From the NCBI GenBank assembly GCA_005223085.1, contig NJBP01000018.1, positions 1 to 34,376 of the forward strand: a stretch of DNA of 34,376 nt. Direction: 5' to 3'. Every line of letters starts with the position of its first letter. The first letter of the stretch is position 1. Position numbers and translations under genes: made by a program. Positions 18,880 to 27,350 of this stretch are shown here, piece after piece. Source of the DNA: Candidatus Aerophobetes bacterium Ae_b3b. GTDB lineage: Bacteria > Aerophobota > Aerophobia > Aerophobales > AE-B3A. The notes under the pieces were generated by a model. It had not been told where the DNA came from. It searched no databases and saw only the letters and a list, made by a program, of their open reading frames with translations.

Positions 18880-19680
18880 TCAATCGAAGCTTGTTGCCCG
18901 GGCTAATCTTTCGGCGAAAGTACCCACTTCGCTTAGCAGGTTTTTGCTGTCCCCATATTTTTCTATTCTTTTAACAATGGCACTGCCCACAATTACTGCG
19001 TCGGCTAAAGAAGCAGCTTTTTGGGCTGATGAGGCTGAGGAAATCCCAAATCCTATCCCGATAGGCTTTGAGGTAAGCCCGCGGATCTTACTTATCAATT
19101 CTTTTAGATCCTGTTCTCCTTTTCTCTCATCGCCAGTTATGCCGGTATAAGAGACACAGTAGATAAATCCTGTACTAGAGGCTGAGACCAGTTTTATCCT
19201 CTCTTCCGAGCTAACCGGGGTAAGGAGAAAGATGAGGTCAAGGCCATTTTTATCCGCCTCCTTTTTTAGATCATTGGCCTCCTCAGGGGGAAGATCGGCA
19301 ACTATTAATCCATCGAGGCCTGCCTGAGAGCATCTTTTTACAAATTCTGCTTCCCCGAATTTAAAAATGGGGTTGTAATATCCCATTAGAATGAGGGGAA
19401 TTTCTGTCTTTTGGCGCAGTTCTCTAACTAATTCCAGAATTTTAAGAAGAGAAATTCCTTCCTTTAACGCTCTTTGAGAAGATCTTTGAATTACCGGCCC
19501 GTCGGCAATGGGATCAGAGAAGGGAACCCCTAGCTCTATGGCATCTGCTCCTCTTTTCTCCAGTTCCAATACTAAAGATTTGGTGAGGTCTAAATTGGGA
19601 TCCCCGGCCGTTATAAAGGGGATAAAAGCCTTTTTTCCTTCATATTTTAGTTTTTTAAACCTTGCCTCGAGGCGACTCAT
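18880..19680 (-). CDS. trpA: Tryptophan synthase alpha chain
   Basis: A 266-residue TIM-barrel subunit that splits indole-3-glycerol phosphate into indole and glyceraldehyde 3-phosphate and channels indole to TrpB. Catalytic E49 ([12 protein letters not shown]) and D60 (PIADGPVIQ) fall at the same numbers as in the enteric enzyme. Loop [24 protein letters not shown] and the phosphate loop GFGISSA are present. The ATG overlaps the trpB stop by 4 nt. It is the last gene of the operon; the 107 bp to the convergent neighbour hold only a weak 5-bp hairpin. Confidence 0.97.
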
Positions 19681-20858
19681 TTCTTACTCACTTCCTCCAG
19701 ATCTTTGTCCCCCCTTCCCGAAAGATTAACTATCACGATTTCATCTCGATTCAGCCCAGGGGCAAGCCTCTTGAGGTAGGCAATGGCATGGGCGCTTTCT
19801 AAGGCGGGAATGATTCCCTCTATCTGGGAAAGCCATCGAAAAGCCTCTAATGCGTCACTATCGGTAACCGTATAGTATTTAACTCTGCCACTTTTCTTAA
19901 GGTAGGAATGCTCTGGGCCGACCCCCGGATAGTCCAGTCCGGGGGCTACTGAATGGGTAGAGCGAATCTGACCATTTCTATCCTGCAGAAGATAACTTTT
20001 GCTTCCATGAAGCACTCCAATGCTTCCCTTGGCTAAAGTTGCTCCATGGCGAGGGGTTGATAGCCCTAATCCCCCTGCTTCGATTCCGATAAGCTCCACC
20101 TCCTCCTCCAAAAAAGGATAGAAAAGTCCGAGGGAGTTACTTCCTCCACCCACGCAGGCAAGTAAATAGCCGGGGAGTTTTTTTTCTTTAGCTAAAATTT
20201 GATGCTTGGTTTCTTTTCCGATGACCGACTGAAAATCACGCACCATCATAGGGTAAGGGTGAGGACCTACTACTGAGCCTAAGACATAATAGGTGCTTCT
20301 TATATTGGTTACCCAATCTCTCATAGCCTCGTTGATAGCCTCCTTTAAGGTGCAGCTTCCAGAAGATACCGGTATCACTTCCGCTCCTAAAAGTTTCATT
20401 CTCGATACGTTGAGCCTCTGGCGCCGGATATCCTCATCTCCCATATATACCTGGCAGGGTAGGCCTAAAACAGCTGCTGCTGTGGCGGTGGCCACTCCAT
20501 GCTGACCGGCTCCGGTTTCAGCAATGATACGGGTTTTACCCATTTTTGTTGCCAATAATACCTGTCCCAGGGTGTTATTAATCTTGTGGGCGCCCGTATG
20601 GGCTAAATCCTCTCTTTTTAGATAAACCTTGGCTCCCTTTAAATCATGGGTTAATCTCTCAGCGAAATACAATGGGGTAGGACGACCAGCATAATCTCTA
20701 AGATATAGTTCCAGTTCGGCCTGAAAGCCATTTTTATCTTTTTTTGCCTCCAGATAGGCCTCTTCCAGCTCGTGCAAAGCCGGCATCACCGTCTCTGGGA
20801 CAAACTTTCCTCCGAACTCCCCAAAATGTCCCTTTTTGTCTGGGAAATAATAATTCAT
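19677..20858 (-). CDS. trpB: Tryptophan synthase beta chain (TrpB1)
   Basis: A 393-residue PLP enzyme that joins indole and serine to form tryptophan. PLP Lys is K92 in [13 protein letters not shown], with the phosphate-binding loop [11 protein letters not shown] and the catalytic-Glu segment LIGIEAGG. It is the canonical TrpB that partners TrpA, and the two genes overlap by 4 nt. A second, TrpB2-type, paralogue leads the same operon (25435-26787). Confidence 0.98.
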
Positions 20859-21469
20859 CCTGCCTTCCGTACCATCTTCACCAGCCTCTCCAGTTTTCCA
20901 TAATCCTTCTTTCCTTCTTTTGATTCCACCCCGCTACCTACATCCACTGCGTAGGGCCTAACCTCACTTATTGCTCTGGCAACATTGTCCGGATTTAGAC
21001 CGCCGGAGAGAATAAGGGGAACCCCAATCCCCTTGACCCTCCCGGCAATTTCCCAGTTGAAAGTTTTTCCTGTTCCTCCTGGCCTGCCCCGAAGATAGGT
21101 ATCCAGAAGGTATGCGTCCACTTTATAGCTCACAGCTTTTTCTAGTACGCTCTCGTCCTTAACCCGAAATGATTTTATGACTTTTTGCCTGAACCCCTGG
21201 CAATAGGCGGGGGATTCTTCTCCGTGAAATTGTAGAGTGGTTAGGCTACATAGATCTGCTATTTCCTTCACTTTTTCCTTATCCTCATCGACAAAAACCC
21301 CTACCGTGGAAACAAAAGGGGGAAGAAATTTAACAATCTTGCATACTACCTCAGGCCCCACTCTTCTGGGACTTTCAGCGAAGATAAAGCCTAAAGCGTC
21401 GACTTTTAAATCTGCTGCCCACAGGGCATCCTCTTTGTTGGTTATTCCACAGATCTTAATGAGGGTCAT
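20855..21469 (-). CDS. trpF: Phosphoribosylanthranilate isomerase
   Basis: 204 residues, carrying out the Amadori isomerisation of PRA to CdRP. Catalytic Cys is in [13 protein letters not shown] (C7); catalytic Asp is in [30 protein letters not shown] and the phosphate loop [10 protein letters not shown] with VDVGSGVES complete the barrel. It overlaps trpC at its start (14 nt) and trpB at its end (4 nt), so it is a separate gene, not a TrpCF fusion. Confidence 0.97.
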
Positions 21470-22241
21470 TTCCTAAAAGCTTCTTTAGCTTTTTGCCTAT
21501 ATTTTCACTTCTCAGTAAGCTCTCACCTATCAAAAAAGCATCTACTCCTGACTTTTTTAATCTTTCAATATCTTTTTCATTTTTAATCCCGCTTTCGCTC
21601 ACCACGATCTTATGAGTCGGGATCTTTTGCATAAGGTCAAAAGTAACTCCTAGATCCACTTTAAGAGTTTGAAGGTCACGGTTATTAATACCAATAATAT
21701 GCGCGGGAAGATCCTTAATCTTCTGCCACTCCTCTTCCCGGTGAATCTCCACCAGGCAGTGCATATCTAGTTCTTGGGCCAAATCCAAATAACTTCTTAA
21801 CTTTTCTCTTTCCAGGATGGAAGCAATTAAAAGAACAGCATCGGCTCCCAGAGCTCTTGCCTCGTAAATTTGATACTCGTCTATGATGAACTCCTTGGCT
21901 AGTATGGGTAAGGAGCTAACTTTTCTAACCTCGACTATATTCTTTAGGTCTCCTCCAAAAAACCTGCGATCAATCAGTATGGAGATAGCTGAGGCACCGT
22001 GTTTCTCATAGATCCTGGCTAATTTCCCAGGATTAAAATCTCTCACTAGAGTCCCGGCTGAGGGGGAGAATTGCTTAATTTCAGCAATGATATTAGTTTT
22101 TCCCCGACATGAGATACTTTCTTTGAAATTATTACCCTGAGCCTCATCAGTTATTCTTGATTTTAGAGCCTCTAAAGGAACTTTTCTTTTTCGCTTCCTC
22201 ACTTCCCTTATTTTATTTTCTAATATCCTTGATAAGAGCAA
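21456..22241 (-). CDS. trpC: Indole-3-glycerol phosphate synthase
   Basis: 261 residues closing the indole ring from CdRP. Motifs: NIIAEIKQFSPSAGTL with the catalytic Lys, SILIDRRFFGGDL, LAKEFIIDEYQIYEARALGA, CLVEIHREEEW, GINNRDLQTLKVD and VSESGIKNEKDIERL with VDAFLIGESL. Length is normal. The gene starts 14 nt after trpD. Confidence 0.97.
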   Translation of the reverse strand: MLLSRILENKIREVRKRKRKVPLEALKSRITDEAQGNNFKESISCRGKTNIIAEIKQFSPSAGTLVRDFNPGKLARIYEKHGASAISILIDRRFFGGDLKNIVEVRKVSSLPILAKEFIIDEYQIYEARALGADAVLLIASILEREKLRSYLDLAQELDMHCLVEIHREEEWQKIKDLPAHIIGINNRDLQTLKVDLGVTFDLMQKIPTHKIVVSESGIKNEKDIERLKKSGVDAFLIGESLLRSENIGKKLKKLLGNDPH

Positions 22242-22255
22242 AAAATTCCTCTCTT

Positions 22256-23272
22256 TTAATTGCGGGTAAAATCAATCAACGCTTCCAGTTTCTTTTTAGC
22301 CCTTCCTGAGTCAATAGAATTTGCCGCTATCTGGACTCCTTGCTCCAGATCTTTAGCTAGGTCTGCCGCTACCAGACAGGCAGCAGCATTAATGAGGACA
22401 ATCTCTCTTTTGGACCCCTTGGCACCTTCGAGAATATCTTTGAAGATGCGAGCGTTTTCTTGTCTTGTGCCTCCACGTATTTCATCGAGACAAGCTCTTT
22501 TTATCCCAAAATCCTCAGGCTGAACATAGTAGGTGTTTATTTTGTTCTCCTTAAGCTGAGTTATTTTTGTTCTTCCACTAATGCTAATCTCATCAAGTCC
22601 ATCCTCTCCCCAGACAACGAAGGCGCCCTTCACCTCTAGGTTTCTTAATACTCTGGCTAAGGGCTCGGTTAAAGAGGGCTGGTAGACACCCAAAAGGCGG
22701 ACGTTGGCTCCCAGGGGATTGGTAAGGGGACCGAGGATGTTAAAGACTGTTCTAATCCCCATCTCCTGTCGGGGCGAAAGGGCATATTTCATAGCTGGGT
22801 GAAATGAGGGAGCAAAAAGAAAGCTGATTCCTACTTTGTCCAGGCACTCCCTCACCTTTTCTTTGGATACAGTTAATTTTACCCCTAAAGTTTCCAGAAC
22901 GTCGGCACTACCACATTGGCTGGAAAGAGCCCGGTTGCCATGTTTGGCTACCACCAGGCCTGCTCCCACTGCAACAAAGGCAACCACTGTGGAAATATTG
23001 AAGGTATTAAGGCTATCTCCCCCGGTGCCGCAAGTATCGACTAAGGTGTCCCTTTCCAGACTGAAAGTATCAACTTTTTCTTGCATAGCTTTGGCAAAAC
23101 CAGTAATCTCCTCTACCGTCTCGCCCTTCATTCTAAGAGCAGTAAGGAATGAGGCAATCTGAGCGGCAGTAGCTTTCCCCTCCATTATTATATTCATAGC
23201 TTTTCTTGCCTGTGGTTCTGTTAAGTTGTTGCCTTCCGCCAGGATTTTTAAAGTCTTCTTGATCATTTCCAC
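22256..23272 (-). CDS. trpD: Anthranilate phosphoribosyltransferase
   Basis: 338 residues; transfers phosphoribose from PRPP to anthranilate. The PRPP-binding motif is DTCGTGGDSLNTFNIST; KHGNRALSSQCGSADVLE, the Mg-site Asp-Glu pair in GEDGLDEIS and the NPLGA loop are present. It is not fused to trpG, which lies 10 nt upstream as a separate gene. Confidence 0.97.
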   Translation of the reverse strand: MEMIKKTLKILAEGNNLTEPQARKAMNIIMEGKATAAQIASFLTALRMKGETVEEITGFAKAMQEKVDTFSLERDTLVDTCGTGGDSLNTFNISTVVAFVAVGAGLVVAKHGNRALSSQCGSADVLETLGVKLTVSKEKVRECLDKVGISFLFAPSFHPAMKYALSPRQEMGIRTVFNILGPLTNPLGANVRLLGVYQPSLTEPLARVLRNLEVKGAFVVWGEDGLDEISISGRTKITQLKENKINTYYVQPEDFGIKRACLDEIRGGTRQENARIFKDILEGAKGSKREIVLINAAACLVAADLAKDLEQGVQIAANSIDSGRAKKKLEALIDFTRN

Positions 23273-23282
23273 TCCCAGCCGT

Positions 23283-23885
23283 TCAAATTGGAATTTGCCA
23301 GGTTCTGAGATGTATACATTCTATAAGATTAAGGAAATTCTTCAACAGCGCCTTGCCTGCCTTGGTTAATATGGATTCAGGATGAAACTGCATTCCAAAG
23401 ACAGGGTACTCCCGGTGTCGGACGCCCATAATCTCGTCTTTGCCAGTCCAGGCAGTTTTTACCAGACAGGTGGGTAGGCTATCATTTTTAATGATCAAGG
23501 AGTGATAGCGGGTAGCCACAAAAGGATTCTCCACTCCTTGGTAGATATCTTTTCCATAGTGGTGGATAAGCGAGGTTTTTCCATGCATCAAATTTTCTGA
23601 CAACACAATTCTTGCCCCAAAGACTTGCCCAATACACTGATGGCCCAGACAAACCCCTAGAATGGGTAGTCGGGGCGCAAAATATTCTACTATCCTGTTA
23701 GACATCCCGGCCTCTTCCGGTCTACCCGGACCAGGTGAGATGAGGATACTTTCCGGTTTTTTCCTTTCTATCTCTTTCAGGCTAAGGTAATCATTTCGGT
23801 AGACTTCGGTTCTTTTCCCCAACTCTCCTAGATATTGGACCAGATTATACACAAATGAGTCGTAGTTATCTATTACCAGAATCAT
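23283..23885 (-). CDS. trpG: Anthranilate synthase component II, glutamine amidotransferase
   Basis: A 200-residue class I amidotransferase that feeds ammonia to TrpE. Catalytic triad: nucleophile C79 in LGVCLGHQCIGQ, and His/Glu in GMQFHPESILT; oxyanion loop SPGPGRPEEAG. The ATG overlaps the trpE stop by 4 nt. The same protein may also serve para-aminobenzoate synthesis, as no separate pabA is seen here. Confidence 0.96.
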   Translation of the reverse strand: MILVIDNYDSFVYNLVQYLGELGKRTEVYRNDYLSLKEIERKKPESILISPGPGRPEEAGMSNRIVEYFAPRLPILGVCLGHQCIGQVFGARIVLSENLMHGKTSLIHHYGKDIYQGVENPFVATRYHSLIIKNDSLPTCLVKTAWTGKDEIMGVRHREYPVFGMQFHPESILTKAGKALLKNFLNLIECIHLRTWQIPI

Positions 23886-25381
23886 TCTATCCCCTCTTCA
23901 GCTAGCTCGATCGCCTTGATGAGGGCTTGGGCCTTATTTAGTGTCTCTTGGTATTCGGACCGAGGATTAGAATCAGCGACAATTCCTGCTCCTGCCTGGA
24001 CATAGGCAAATCCATCTTTGATGAGGATGGTACGAATTATGATACAGGTATCCAGATTTCCCGTGAAACTAAAGTATCCTAAGGATCCGGCATAGGGACC
24101 TCGTTTACAGGGCTCAATTTCTTCGATAATTTCCATGGCTCTTATCTTAGGGGCTCCAGAGACAGTCCCGGCGGGAAAACTTGCTCTCAGAAGATCGTAT
24201 TGATCCATCTCTTTTCTTAATTTTCCCTCAACGTGGGAGACAAGATGCATGACATGAGAATATTTTTCGATGCCTAATAATTCGGTGACTTTTACGGTGC
24301 CACTTTCACAAACCCGGCCCAGATCATTACGGCCCAGATCTACCAGCATTATATGTTCCGCTCTTTCTTTGGGGTCGGCCAGAAGTTCCTGGGCTAGACG
24401 CTCATCTTCGGCCTCATTTCTTCCCCTGGGCCTGGTTCCGGCAATGGGCCGCAGGATAACCTCATCTTTCTCTTTTCTTACCAGAATCTCCGGAGAGCTT
24501 CCTATTATCTGGAAATCCCCGCATTTTAGATAATACATATAGGGAGAAGGATTAAGAGATCTTAAACAACGATAAATATCAAAGGGGGAAGTATTTACTT
24601 TTCTCTTTAACCTTTGAGACAGAACTACTTGAAACGCATCACCCCGTTTTATATATTTCTTGGCTTTTTTTACTCCCTCCATAAAAAGCTGTGGAGTAAG
24701 GTTAGACTGAATATCAGTCTTTTTTTTCCTTTGGGTGTACTTCAGACTGGTAGAGGAACCAGAGGGAAGAGGATTTTTTAGTCTAGCAACTACTTCTTCT
24801 ATCCTTTGCTTGGTCTTTTCATAGGTCAGGTGAGTGGGTTCTTTCCCATCTAAAAAGGCATGAGAGACAATCTTTATCTTATGATCGATATGATCAAATA
24901 TGAGCAGGGTATCGCTGAGCATAAACAAACTATCGGGAAAACCTAGATCATCCTTGTTTAACGGGGGAATCTTTTCCCAGAAGCGTATCATATCATAGCC
25001 TAGATAGCCTACCGCTCCCCCCGAAAAACGGGGCAGGCCGGGAAGATTAACTACCTTGAACCTTCCTATGATCTTCTTTAGGTTGTGCAAAGGGTCCTTC
25101 TGGCAGGTTAAAGCAATATTTTTCCCCTTTTCTATTATGTGGATTTTTTTCCCTTTACTTTTGAAGATTATTCCCGACCCGCTCCCTAAAAAAGAGTATC
25201 TTCCTAATCTTTCTCCTTTTTCCACACTTTCTAAAAGATAGGAAAATTCCCCCTCATCGAGTTTCTTAAAGGCCGATACCGGTGTCTCCAGATCGGCGAG
25301 AATTTCTCGATAAACCGGGATCAAATTCCCTTTCTTAGATAACTTTTTAAATTCCTCTTCTTGCGGGTAATACAATTTCAT
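23882..25381 (-). CDS. trpE: Anthranilate synthase component I
   Basis: 499 residues; converts chorismate to anthranilate. The N-terminal LLES motif (49-52), which binds tryptophan for feedback inhibition, is intact. The C-terminal chorismate-binding domain has GSSPEILVR, IAGTRPRGRNEAED, SHVEGKL and PAGTVSGAPKIRAMEII. So the enzyme is probably feedback-inhibited as well as controlled at RNA level by TRAP. AAAGG lies close to the ATG, inside the palindrome CCTTTAAAGG. Confidence 0.97.
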   Translation of the reverse strand: MKLYYPQEEEFKKLSKKGNLIPVYREILADLETPVSAFKKLDEGEFSYLLESVEKGERLGRYSFLGSGSGIIFKSKGKKIHIIEKGKNIALTCQKDPLHNLKKIIGRFKVVNLPGLPRFSGGAVGYLGYDMIRFWEKIPPLNKDDLGFPDSLFMLSDTLLIFDHIDHKIKIVSHAFLDGKEPTHLTYEKTKQRIEEVVARLKNPLPSGSSTSLKYTQRKKKTDIQSNLTPQLFMEGVKKAKKYIKRGDAFQVVLSQRLKRKVNTSPFDIYRCLRSLNPSPYMYYLKCGDFQIIGSSPEILVRKEKDEVILRPIAGTRPRGRNEAEDERLAQELLADPKERAEHIMLVDLGRNDLGRVCESGTVKVTELLGIEKYSHVMHLVSHVEGKLRKEMDQYDLLRASFPAGTVSGAPKIRAMEIIEEIEPCKRGPYAGSLGYFSFTGNLDTCIIIRTILIKDGFAYVQAGAGIVADSNPRSEYQETLNKAQALIKAIELAEEGIE

Positions 25382-25407: not shown

Positions 25408-25436
25408 AGAGGAGGATTTCCCCTGGTGACTCCTCT
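25408..25436 (-). other. Hairpin in the trpB2-trpE junction
   Basis: AGAGGAG (25436-25430 on the minus strand) and CTCCTCT (25414-25408) form a 7-bp stem with a 15-base loop, beginning inside the trpB2 stop region. There is no U-tract, so it is not a classical terminator; it could be an mRNA processing or stability element separating trpB2 from trpE. Confidence 0.35.
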
Positions 25437-26787
25437 AACTTTCCTTTATCTCAGGTAGCGACTTTAGTGCTTCTTCGATTTTTTCCTGTGGATATTTGTA
25501 GTCCTCCAGTTTGCCTTCAAAATAAGCCTGGTAGGCGCCTAGGTCAAAGTAACCATGGCCAGAATGATTGAAGACAATTACCGTCCCTGGCTTGGCTTTT
25601 TTTGCCTCTTCGATTACCGCTTTGGTAGCATGGGCTGTCTCGGGTGCTGGCAGAAATCCTTCTGTCTGAGCGAACAGCAAAGCCGCCTCGAATACCTCTT
25701 TCTGGTGATAAGCCTGCGCCTCCATTAGCCCTAATTTCAGTAGATGGCAGAGAATAGGTGCATCGCCATGATATCTCAGCCCTCCTGCATGAATAGGAGG
25801 AGGAACAAAAGAGTGTCCCAGAGTAAACATCTTCACTACCGGTCCCGTTCCAGCCGTATCTCCAAAATCATACTTATATGGACCTCTAGTAAGACTAGGA
25901 CAGGCCGTGGGTTCTACGGCTATAAACCTTATCTTCTCACCGGCAAGTTTCCTGGGAAAGAAGGGAAGAAAGAAGCCACCAAAGTTACTTCCTCCTCCTA
26001 CACAGCCAATCATTATATCTGGCTTTTCTCCCGCTTTCTCTAGTTGTTTTTCCACCTCTAGGCCCACGATAGTTTGATGAAGAAGAACGTGATTCACCAC
26101 GCTTCCTATGGAGTATTTGGTATCTTCATGAGTCGCTGCATCTTCTATTGCCTCGGATATGGCAATTCCCAAACTACCAAGGCAGTCTGGATCTTCCTCT
26201 GAGACTTTTCTGCCGAAATTTGTCCTATTGGAGGGAGAGCGAAACATCTCTGCTCCCCAGCTTTGAGCCAAGAGCCTTCTGTAAGGTTTTTGGTCGTAAC
26301 TTATCCCTACCATATAGACAGTGCATTCTAGTCCGAACATCTTACATGCAAAAGCTAAGGCGCTTCCCCATTGGCCAGCTCCGGTCTCGGTAGCCAGTCT
26401 CTTAATCCCTTCTTTCTTGTTGTAATAGGCCTGGGCAATGGCTGTATTCGGCTTGTGAGAACCTGGTGGGGATAGGGATTCATCTTTATAATATATTTTC
26501 GCCGAGGTTCCTATGGCCTCCTCCAGCCGATAGGCTCTGCGTAAAGGAGTGGGGCGGTATTGAGTATACACCTTTAGTACTTCCTCAGGTATCTCAATGC
26601 GAGGTTGGGAAGACATCTCCTGCTCAATACAAGCCATGGGGAAGATTGGCAAAAGATCTTCTGGAACTAGCGGCTTCTTAGTGCCAGGGTGTAGTTCCGG
26701 GGGTAGGGACCCTGGTAAATCTGGTAGTACATTGTACCATGCTTGGGGCATTTCCCTTTCTTCCAGTAAAATCTTTTTTTCAGTCAT
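25435..26787 (-). CDS. TrpB2-type (TrpB-like) pyridoxal-phosphate enzyme
   Basis: 450 residues of the TrpB2 branch (COG1350), which is longer than TrpB1 and has an N-terminal extension ([20 protein letters not shown]). PLP Lys is K112 in [42 protein letters not shown] and [11 protein letters not shown] follow. TrpB2 enzymes make tryptophan from serine, or phosphoserine in some archaea, and indole, often without TrpA; they are thought to salvage free indole. Here it is the first structural gene behind the TRAP leader, with a full trpB/trpA pair at the far end. AAGGAG lies 8 nt before the ATG. Confidence 0.94.
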
Positions 26788-26809: not shown

Positions 26810-27034
26810 TTTTTCTTCTGTTTTCTTCGGACTATCAGTCCTTTTTTCTCTCCAAATAAATATCTGGCTTTCTCCTTGCCTCTTGGACAACCTCTTTCTT
26901 ATTCTGACATATCCTCTCCTGGTCTTTTTAATTTTTCCTCAAATTTTCTCCCTGTTTTAATCCCTCTTTGCTAGCAGGATATTTCCAATAAAAAAACCGA
27001 GCAGGAAGCCCGATTTTAAAAAATATCCACTCAC
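26810..27034 (-). pseudogene. Possible decayed YtxH-like small protein in the trp leader
   Basis: Minus-strand codons 27034-26957 spell VSGYFLKSGFLLGFFIGNIL then LAKRD and a stop, like the Gly-rich membrane head of YtxH-domain proteins. Downstream, other frames give charged helical stretches (TGRKFEEKLKRPGED, KEKARYLFGEKKG). Switching frames restores a head-plus-coiled-coil plan. The same bases carry the GAG-repeat site and terminator, and the region is purine-rich, so the similarity may be accidental. Listed with low confidence; the regulatory reading is stronger. Confidence 0.25.
26990..27017 (-). terminator. Attenuator terminator of the trp leader
   Basis: On the minus strand TCGGGC, loop TTCCT and GCTCGG form a 6-bp stem (27013-26997, two G-U pairs), extendable by AAAA-UUUU pairing, followed by seven U residues (26996-26990). 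It lies 60-80 bases after the mtrB stop and about 200 bases before trpB2. Alone it would end transcription after mtrB. The upstream GAG segment can compete for its loop and 3' arm (see regulatory site and findings). Confidence 0.65.
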
Positions 27035-27063
27035 CTCCTCTCGTCTCAAGCTTATCTCGTCTT
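27025..27063 (-). promoter_or_regulatory. TRAP-binding site: GAG/AAG triplet array in the trp leader
   Basis: Reading the minus strand from 27063: AAG-ac-GAG-at-AAG-ctt-GAG-ac-GAG-ag-GAG-gt-GAG-tg-GAT. That is seven NAG triplets and one GAT with spacers of 2,2,3,2,2,2,2 bases. TRAP binds up to 11 (G/U/A)AG triplets spaced by 2-3 nt, so the register fits what is known from Bacillus subtilis. It starts 15 bases after the mtrB stop. The segment CGAG-A-GGAGG (27043-27034) can pair with 27008-26998 (nine pairs around a small internal loop), which would form an antiterminator. Confidence 0.8.
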
Positions 27064-27077
27064 TAAAGATTTAGAAA

Positions 27078-27305
27078 TTACTTACCGGATTGTACTTTTC
27101 CATACCGGGAAAAGATCTCCGCTTTACCTCTTATCTTGATGGCAGATACATGTTCTGTAAACTGACAGAACCAGACCTCACCTTCATCCAATTTCTCGGT
27201 ATGATGAACTGTGGTCTCTTTTCCTCGAGTTAAGCCAATGATGGTTACCCCGTTTTCTAGCGCTTTCACTACCATAAAATCAGCTTGCACTATTTCTTCC
27301 ATCAT
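27078..27305 (-). CDS. mtrB: Trp RNA-binding attenuation protein (TRAP)
   Basis: A 75-residue protein, the same length as Bacillus subtilis TRAP, closely similar throughout: DFMVVKALENGVTIIGLTRG, then HHTEKLDEGEVWFCQFTEH and SAIKIRGKAE. With an offset of one, the RNA-binding K37, K56 and R58 of the Bacillus protein are present as K38, K57 and R59; the tryptophan-pocket residues T25, Q47, T49 and S53 as T26, Q48, T50 and S54. It should form an 11-subunit ring that, when loaded with tryptophan, wraps (G/U)AG-repeat RNA. Such repeats begin 15 nt after its stop codon, ahead of the trp genes. It has its own strong promoter. No mtrA/folE is adjacent, unlike B. subtilis. Either of two ATGs (27305, 27302) may start it. 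Confidence 0.95.
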   Translation of the reverse strand: MMEEIVQADFMVVKALENGVTIIGLTRGKETTVHHTEKLDEGEVWFCQFTEHVSAIKIRGKAEIFSRYGKVQSGK

Positions 27306-27322
27306 CCAACTCTTCGAGATAC

Positions 27323-27350
27323 ATTATAGGAGTTTTTTCTTTCCCGTCAA
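27323..27350 (-). promoter_or_regulatory. Promoter of mtrB and probably of the trp operon
   Basis: TTGACG (27350-27345), 16-base spacer, TATAAT (27328-27323), only 18 bases before the mtrB ATG. It is the strongest consensus-like promoter between rpsI and trpB2; no comparable promoter was found between mtrB and trpB2, which suggests one transcript enters mtrB, the leader and the trp genes. Confidence 0.75.

Follow-up and report, generated by a model that had tools for sequence, protein, structure and literature searches.

The question raised by this locus is whether a trp operon can encode, within its own leader transcript, the tryptophan sensor that should control it. The locus lies in a 34,376-nucleotide stretch of DNA, referred to in its entirety as the window, from Candidatus Aerophobetes bacterium Ae_b3b (assembly GCA_005223085.1, contig NJBP01000018.1). 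A preliminary description of the window had proposed the order promoter, mtrB, array of NAG triplets, terminator, and trpB2-trpEGDCFBA, and this order holds on the sequence, the open reading frames (ORFs), and the family matches. From the evidence below, we consider it probable (about 0.86) that the locus is a TRAP-type, tryptophan-dependent transcription attenuator with mtrB in its leader transcript.

Organization of the mtrB-trp locus

Along the minus strand, rpsI is followed by a promoter, mtrB, the NAG array, a terminator hairpin, a gap of approximately 200 nt, and the genes trpB2-trpE-trpG-trpD-trpC-trpF-trpB-trpA. The predicted promoter of the mtrB-trp transcript, TTGACG-16-TATAAT (27323..27350, minus strand), has 11 of 12 consensus bases, and the ATG of mtrB is 18 nt from the end of the -10 element. 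The 5′ ends of mtrB messages look very short, with these 18 nt in the window and only 8 to 9 nt from the -10 element in two relatives, G010 and G011 (loci L015 and L016), whose mtrB messages would be nearly leaderless. A scan of the interval between the array and trpB2 for a separate trp promoter, the finding that would have spoken against a common leader, gave none of quality, the best candidates being two 9/12 matches that both overlap the array. An Rfam search of the window returned no family match.

All the genes behind the attenuator are on the minus strand. The first is trpB2, TrpB-like (25435..26787; NF009057, 702 bits; TIGR01415), followed by trpE (23882..25381; TIGR00564, 594 bits), trpG (23283..23885), trpD (22256..23272; TIGR01245), trpC (21456..22241), trpF (20855..21469), trpB (19677..20858; TIGR00263), and trpA (18880..19680; TIGR00262), with trpG, trpC, and trpF assigned as ORFs with same-order counterparts in relatives. 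The trpB2 product shares 93% identity with its copy in the relative G001, compared to 63 to 81% for the remaining trp proteins of the pair, and may be under stronger constraint or have been recently exchanged.

The mtrB product is a TRAP protein

The gene mtrB (27078..27305, minus strand) encodes a 75-residue protein that scored 124.3 bits against PF02081 in a profile search (cut-off, 21.3) and 124.7 against the equivalog model NF009724 (cut-off, 117), and that is matched by TRAP sequences in the PDB with E-values down to 3e-46. On these grounds MtrB is, by sequence, an unmistakable TRAP, as had been claimed. When MtrB was aligned with two TRAP sequences of the Bacillus type, K38, K57, and R59 were invariant; we take these positions to be the RNA-contacting residues of TRAP. 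From its identity to solved TRAPs, MtrB would be expected to form an 11- or 12-subunit, tryptophan-activated ring.

Only one TRAP gene, this mtrB, turned up in the 2.04-Mb draft genome (89% complete). Searches of the same draft (89% complete) for the anti-TRAP protein RtpA with PF15777 gave only one match, below the cut-off and in a 385-residue frame, and most of the matches in relatives were likewise in frames of 383 to 392 residues, about as long as DnaJ, a protein with zinc fingers. One candidate from the relative G005 was rejected because its frame clears the PF15777 cut-off only through the sum of two copies. No TRAP relatives were found in the viral contigs searched, and the plasmids searched yielded a single match, in Monoglobus.

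The NAG array

The predicted TRAP-binding array (27063..27025, minus strand) reads AAG.ac.GAG.at.AAG.ctt.GAG.ac.GAG.ag.GAG.gt.GAG.tg.GAT, that is, five GAG and two AAG triplets plus GAT in a strict register of 2- to 3-nt spacers, just as the preliminary description had it. The short gap to the mtrB stop codon was also borne out, except that it measures 14 nt and not the 15 nt originally given. When NAG triplets were summed in a strict 5- to 6-nt register, the array was the best chain on either strand of the window, with a score of 6.4 compared to 4.5 for the runner-up. When the purine-rich leader was simulated with a first-order Markov model, 0.3% of trials attained 6.4; a second-order simulation of the entire 34-kb strand attained it anywhere in 1 of 60 trials.

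Shorter patterns carry no such information, since bare runs of four to five triplets, used for a regulon search in the bacterium's own genome, showed no excess over the background or a reversed-pattern control; the array is therefore persuasive by its length, place, and conservation and not by its short pieces. Sites in Bacillus usually, though not invariably, comprise about 11 triplets, mostly GAG or UAG, and the shortness of this site and its two AAG triplets speak against the TRAP reading. Triplet number varies in nature, with 19 NAG in Bacillus halodurans (PMC3184956), and for this reason the seven to eight triplets seen here are not taken as excluding a TRAP site. The interval from the terminator to trpB2 is purine rich too, and a second TRAP site ahead of trpB2 was considered and found to be unsupported, the strict chain there scoring only 2.1. 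Elsewhere in the same genome, a seven-triplet array (L135:1489-1522, contig G000:C37) lies approximately 25 nt before a gene of the ABC substrate-binding type; it is a possible second TRAP target, unproven given that short arrays are at background level in this genome.

Terminator and predicted folding switch

Behind the array, the stem-loop with a 7-U tract that had been noted was confirmed at 27017..26993 (minus strand) as a 10-bp hairpin, AAAATCGGGC-TTCCT-GCTCGGTTTT, followed by seven T. Its pairing is kept in seven leaders, with 91% of cells paired in the alignment and one compensatory change, although variation across these leaders is too small for a statistical claim of covariation.

RNA folding predicts an antiterminator (26996..27044, minus strand) formed by pairing between CGAGAGGAGG in the array and CUUCCUGCUCG in the terminator, with a minimum free energy of -16.8 kcal/mol versus -11.1 for the terminator alone. 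Folding the window leader with and without the triplets masked, as had been suggested, revealed a switch, the probability of the terminator rising from 0.01 with the array free to 1.00 with the array masked. Against spacer-shuffled controls, 112 of 300 of which were at least as low, the array-terminator pairing in the window is ordinary, and its strength may simply follow from AG-rich triplets facing a CU-rich stem. The folding switch in the window is hence best described as plausible.

Leaders from related genomes gave a graded picture. Those of G008 and G004 (trpX) showed a strong switch, with terminator probabilities of 0.00 and 0.09 with the array free, and that of G011 a partial one (0.23), while in G002 the competing fold reached -19.3 versus -10.7 for the terminator. 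In G004 (trpE), G010, and G013, the terminator was mostly formed either way at equilibrium (0.72 to 0.91 with the array free), but pairing between array and terminator arm was still seen in the nascent RNA. No switch appeared at equilibrium in G001 and G014, the terminator being predicted even with the array free. The array-terminator pairing beat the spacer-shuffled controls in G004, G013, G010, and G011.

Conservation within the phylum

The phylum was sampled through 17 genomes, including that of the window (G000). TRAP was detected in 11 of these, and trpE above its cut-off in 9. All nine trpE-bearing genomes have a NAG array ahead of trpE or trpB2, followed in eight by a terminator; the exception is G012, whose array has no such terminator and overlaps the probable start of trpE. 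Thus, the triplet arrays with a downstream terminator do recur in related genomes, the conservation on which the preliminary description had made its case depend, with mtrB directly upstream of the array in five of the nine (G000, G001, G010, G012, and G014). In the other four, G004 (trpE), G013, G008, and G002, the array has no mtrB upstream, and the gene is at the operon end, elsewhere, or not found; in G013, it is placed behind trpF. The distance from the mtrB stop to the array ranges among relatives from a few nucleotides to 141 nt. The draft of G002 (69% complete), in which mtrB was not found, has a transporter ATPase gene followed by array, terminator, trpB2, and trpE (L130:1-1034).

Combinations with other genes were also seen. 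In G004, mtrB, array, and terminator lie ahead of genes for a substrate-binding protein, a permease, and an ATPase of the PF04392/PF02653/PF00005 type, presumably an ABC transporter of the trpXYZ type, and trpE is preceded by a separate array and terminator that follow an rpsI-like gene. G011 has kept mtrB, array, and terminator (L016:426-1045) with no trpE found in the genome; the next gene there resembles one, peptidase-like, that comes after trpA in G010 and G012. No attenuator follows mtrB in G007, G015, or G016. The mtrB start of G007 is itself overlapped by a NAG array (L020:7108 and downstream, minus strand), which could be a sign of autoregulation.

For four PF04392 genes (two in G013 and one each in G014 and G015), the start lies within or immediately after a NAG array that covers the ribosome-binding site, a position that points to translational control in trans. 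When the relatives' loci and the window were scanned together (353 kb with both strands counted), 18 positions scored at least 4.6, of which 17 lie in trp leaders, at the start of transporter genes, or, once, at the start of mtrB in G007, the lone exception being L019:14588; because these loci had been picked for mtrB, trpE, or PF04392, the figure reflects an enrichment inside chosen loci and not a genome-wide test.

Loci outside the phylum

Beyond the phylum sample and one Bacillota class, we read the best 80 of at least 578 TRAP loci. Among these 80, nearly all the Bacillota and Synergistota copies lacked a trp gene in the 6 kb retrieved. Two Bacillota loci, L054 and L060, show the order mtrB, array, terminator, DAHP synthase, and trpE. 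In the Bacillota class of L060, TRAP was present in 27 of 29 genomes, with an array and terminator between mtrB and DAHP synthase in nine genomes and an array at the DAHP synthase start in two, one locus ending at the contig end. In L060 itself, from a Bacillota metagenome-assembled genome, an 802-residue frame (L060:6375-8780) directly behind mtrB, array, and terminator fuses a DAHP synthase domain (PF00793) to TrpE (PF04715, PF00425).

By sequence, then, mtrB in the leader is an arrangement not unique to the host. In a TRAP tree, the Aerophobetes proteins and those of these Bacillota loci lie on separate branches; the arrangement therefore arose more than once or is old, two histories between which this tree of few columns does not discriminate.

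Proposed mechanism and alternative explanations

As we read the locus, transcription would start near 27316, cross mtrB, and then enter the NAG array. With tryptophan scarce, TRAP would be inactive and the array free to pair with the terminator as an antiterminator, so that polymerase would enter trpB2-trpEGDCFBA. With ample tryptophan, Trp-TRAP would occupy the array and block the antiterminator, the terminator would fold, and the transcript would stop after mtrB. As termination lies behind mtrB, upstream of its own control point, the gene would be transcribed and the TRAP message made in both tryptophan states, and the number of TRAP-encoding messages would be coupled to that of the leaders under control. 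Tryptophan-dependent binding, termination in vivo, continued TRAP synthesis, and any stoichiometric benefit are what we infer from this layout.

Whether the placement of mtrB in cis itself matters is a separate issue, on which we would put somewhat less than even odds. The arrangement is not required, because the array occurs without an upstream mtrB in four trp-bearing relatives. The competing explanation accepts the attenuation mechanism and differs only on what the cis arrangement means: the array would regulate the trp genes via TRAP, with mtrB a clustered neighbor whose position in the leader has no regulatory significance. The variable gene order, with G002, G004 (trpE), G008, and G013 lacking mtrB ahead of the array, and the variable mtrB-to-array distance both favor it; against it, mtrB, array, and terminator recur together before trpB2, trpE, trpXYZ, and DAHP synthase, in two phyla and on two TRAP branches. 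We regard this explanation as a serious contender that falls a little short of an even chance. The same recurrence would fit, tentatively and no more strongly, a self-contained, movable tryptophan-off cassette of mtrB, array, and terminator, placed ahead of trpB2/trpE, trpXYZ, or DAHP synthase-trpE in at least two phyla; it would hold sensor and target in fixed proportion because each leader also carries the TRAP message.

A second alternative concerns the mechanism, with TRAP acting mainly without an antiterminator, either by promoting termination directly when bound or by also blocking trpB2 translation. The leaders of G001 and G014, with a terminator predicted despite the free array, would be accounted for in this way, as would the arrays that overlap the likely trpE start in G012 and transporter starts in G013 to G015, and TRAP of Bacillus subtilis can terminate without the attenuator in vivo (PMC3913778). 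We nevertheless judge this alternative unlikely: the window has a strong competing fold, and no comparable array lies in the latter half of its leader, ahead of trpB2 (strict chain, 2.1). That the triplets are a chance product of a purine-rich mtrB 3′ end next to an ordinary mtrB terminator, with the trp genes regulated separately, would agree with the purine-rich terminator-trpB2 region and the background level of short NAG patterns but is highly improbable, since different genera and families share arrays with this register and position and no good separate promoter was seen.

Comparison with known systems

To our knowledge, TRAP has been studied almost exclusively in Bacillus. Here, an uncultured phylum outside the Bacillota appears to keep the whole TRAP logic in many genera (protein, array, terminator, and transporter sites), frequently with the sensor gene inside the leader that it should control. 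This would provide a natural test of whether attenuation gains robustness when sensor dosage is locked to leader dosage, as well as natural variants for the evolution of RNA-based control, including attenuation, apparent translational control, transporter relocation, and retention where no trp operon was found. A search of the open-access literature turned up neither a trp leader containing mtrB nor a TRAP from Aerophobetes, which does not imply absence from the wider literature. Hence, as far as the sequences indicate, the kind of control, TRAP attenuation, is already known, whereas a trp leader that houses the sensor gene and the presence of TRAP in Aerophobetes have no earlier report that we found in the open-access literature.

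The B. subtilis trp operon is controlled through TRAP-mediated attenuation, and its trpEDCFBA attenuator (PMC3913778) shares with our locus the TRAP protein, NAG triplets with 2- to 3-nt spacers, and competing antiterminator and terminator upstream of the trp genes. The two differ in the site, 11 (G/U)AG in B. subtilis versus 7 NAG (two of them AAG) plus GAT here, and in that, unlike in B. subtilis, the trp genes begin with trpB2 and no anti-TRAP was found. They also differ in the position of the sensor gene. In B. subtilis, mtrB is part of mtrAB and lies outside the leader, as the preliminary description stated, although "elsewhere" overstates the separation, mtrAB being only a few kilobases upstream of the trp region on the same strand; here, mtrB is within the leader transcript.

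TRAP of B. subtilis also controls the translation of transporter and trpG messages, and the arrays over the ribosome-binding site or start of trpX-like genes in G013, G014, and G015, seen in relatives of the host, resemble this second mode of action. In the order of sensor, array, terminator, and target genes, the Bacillota loci L054 and L060 and their relatives are equal to ours; these differ in having 10 to 15 triplets in several genomes, DAHP synthase as the first gene (fused to TrpE in L060), and a TRAP on another branch.
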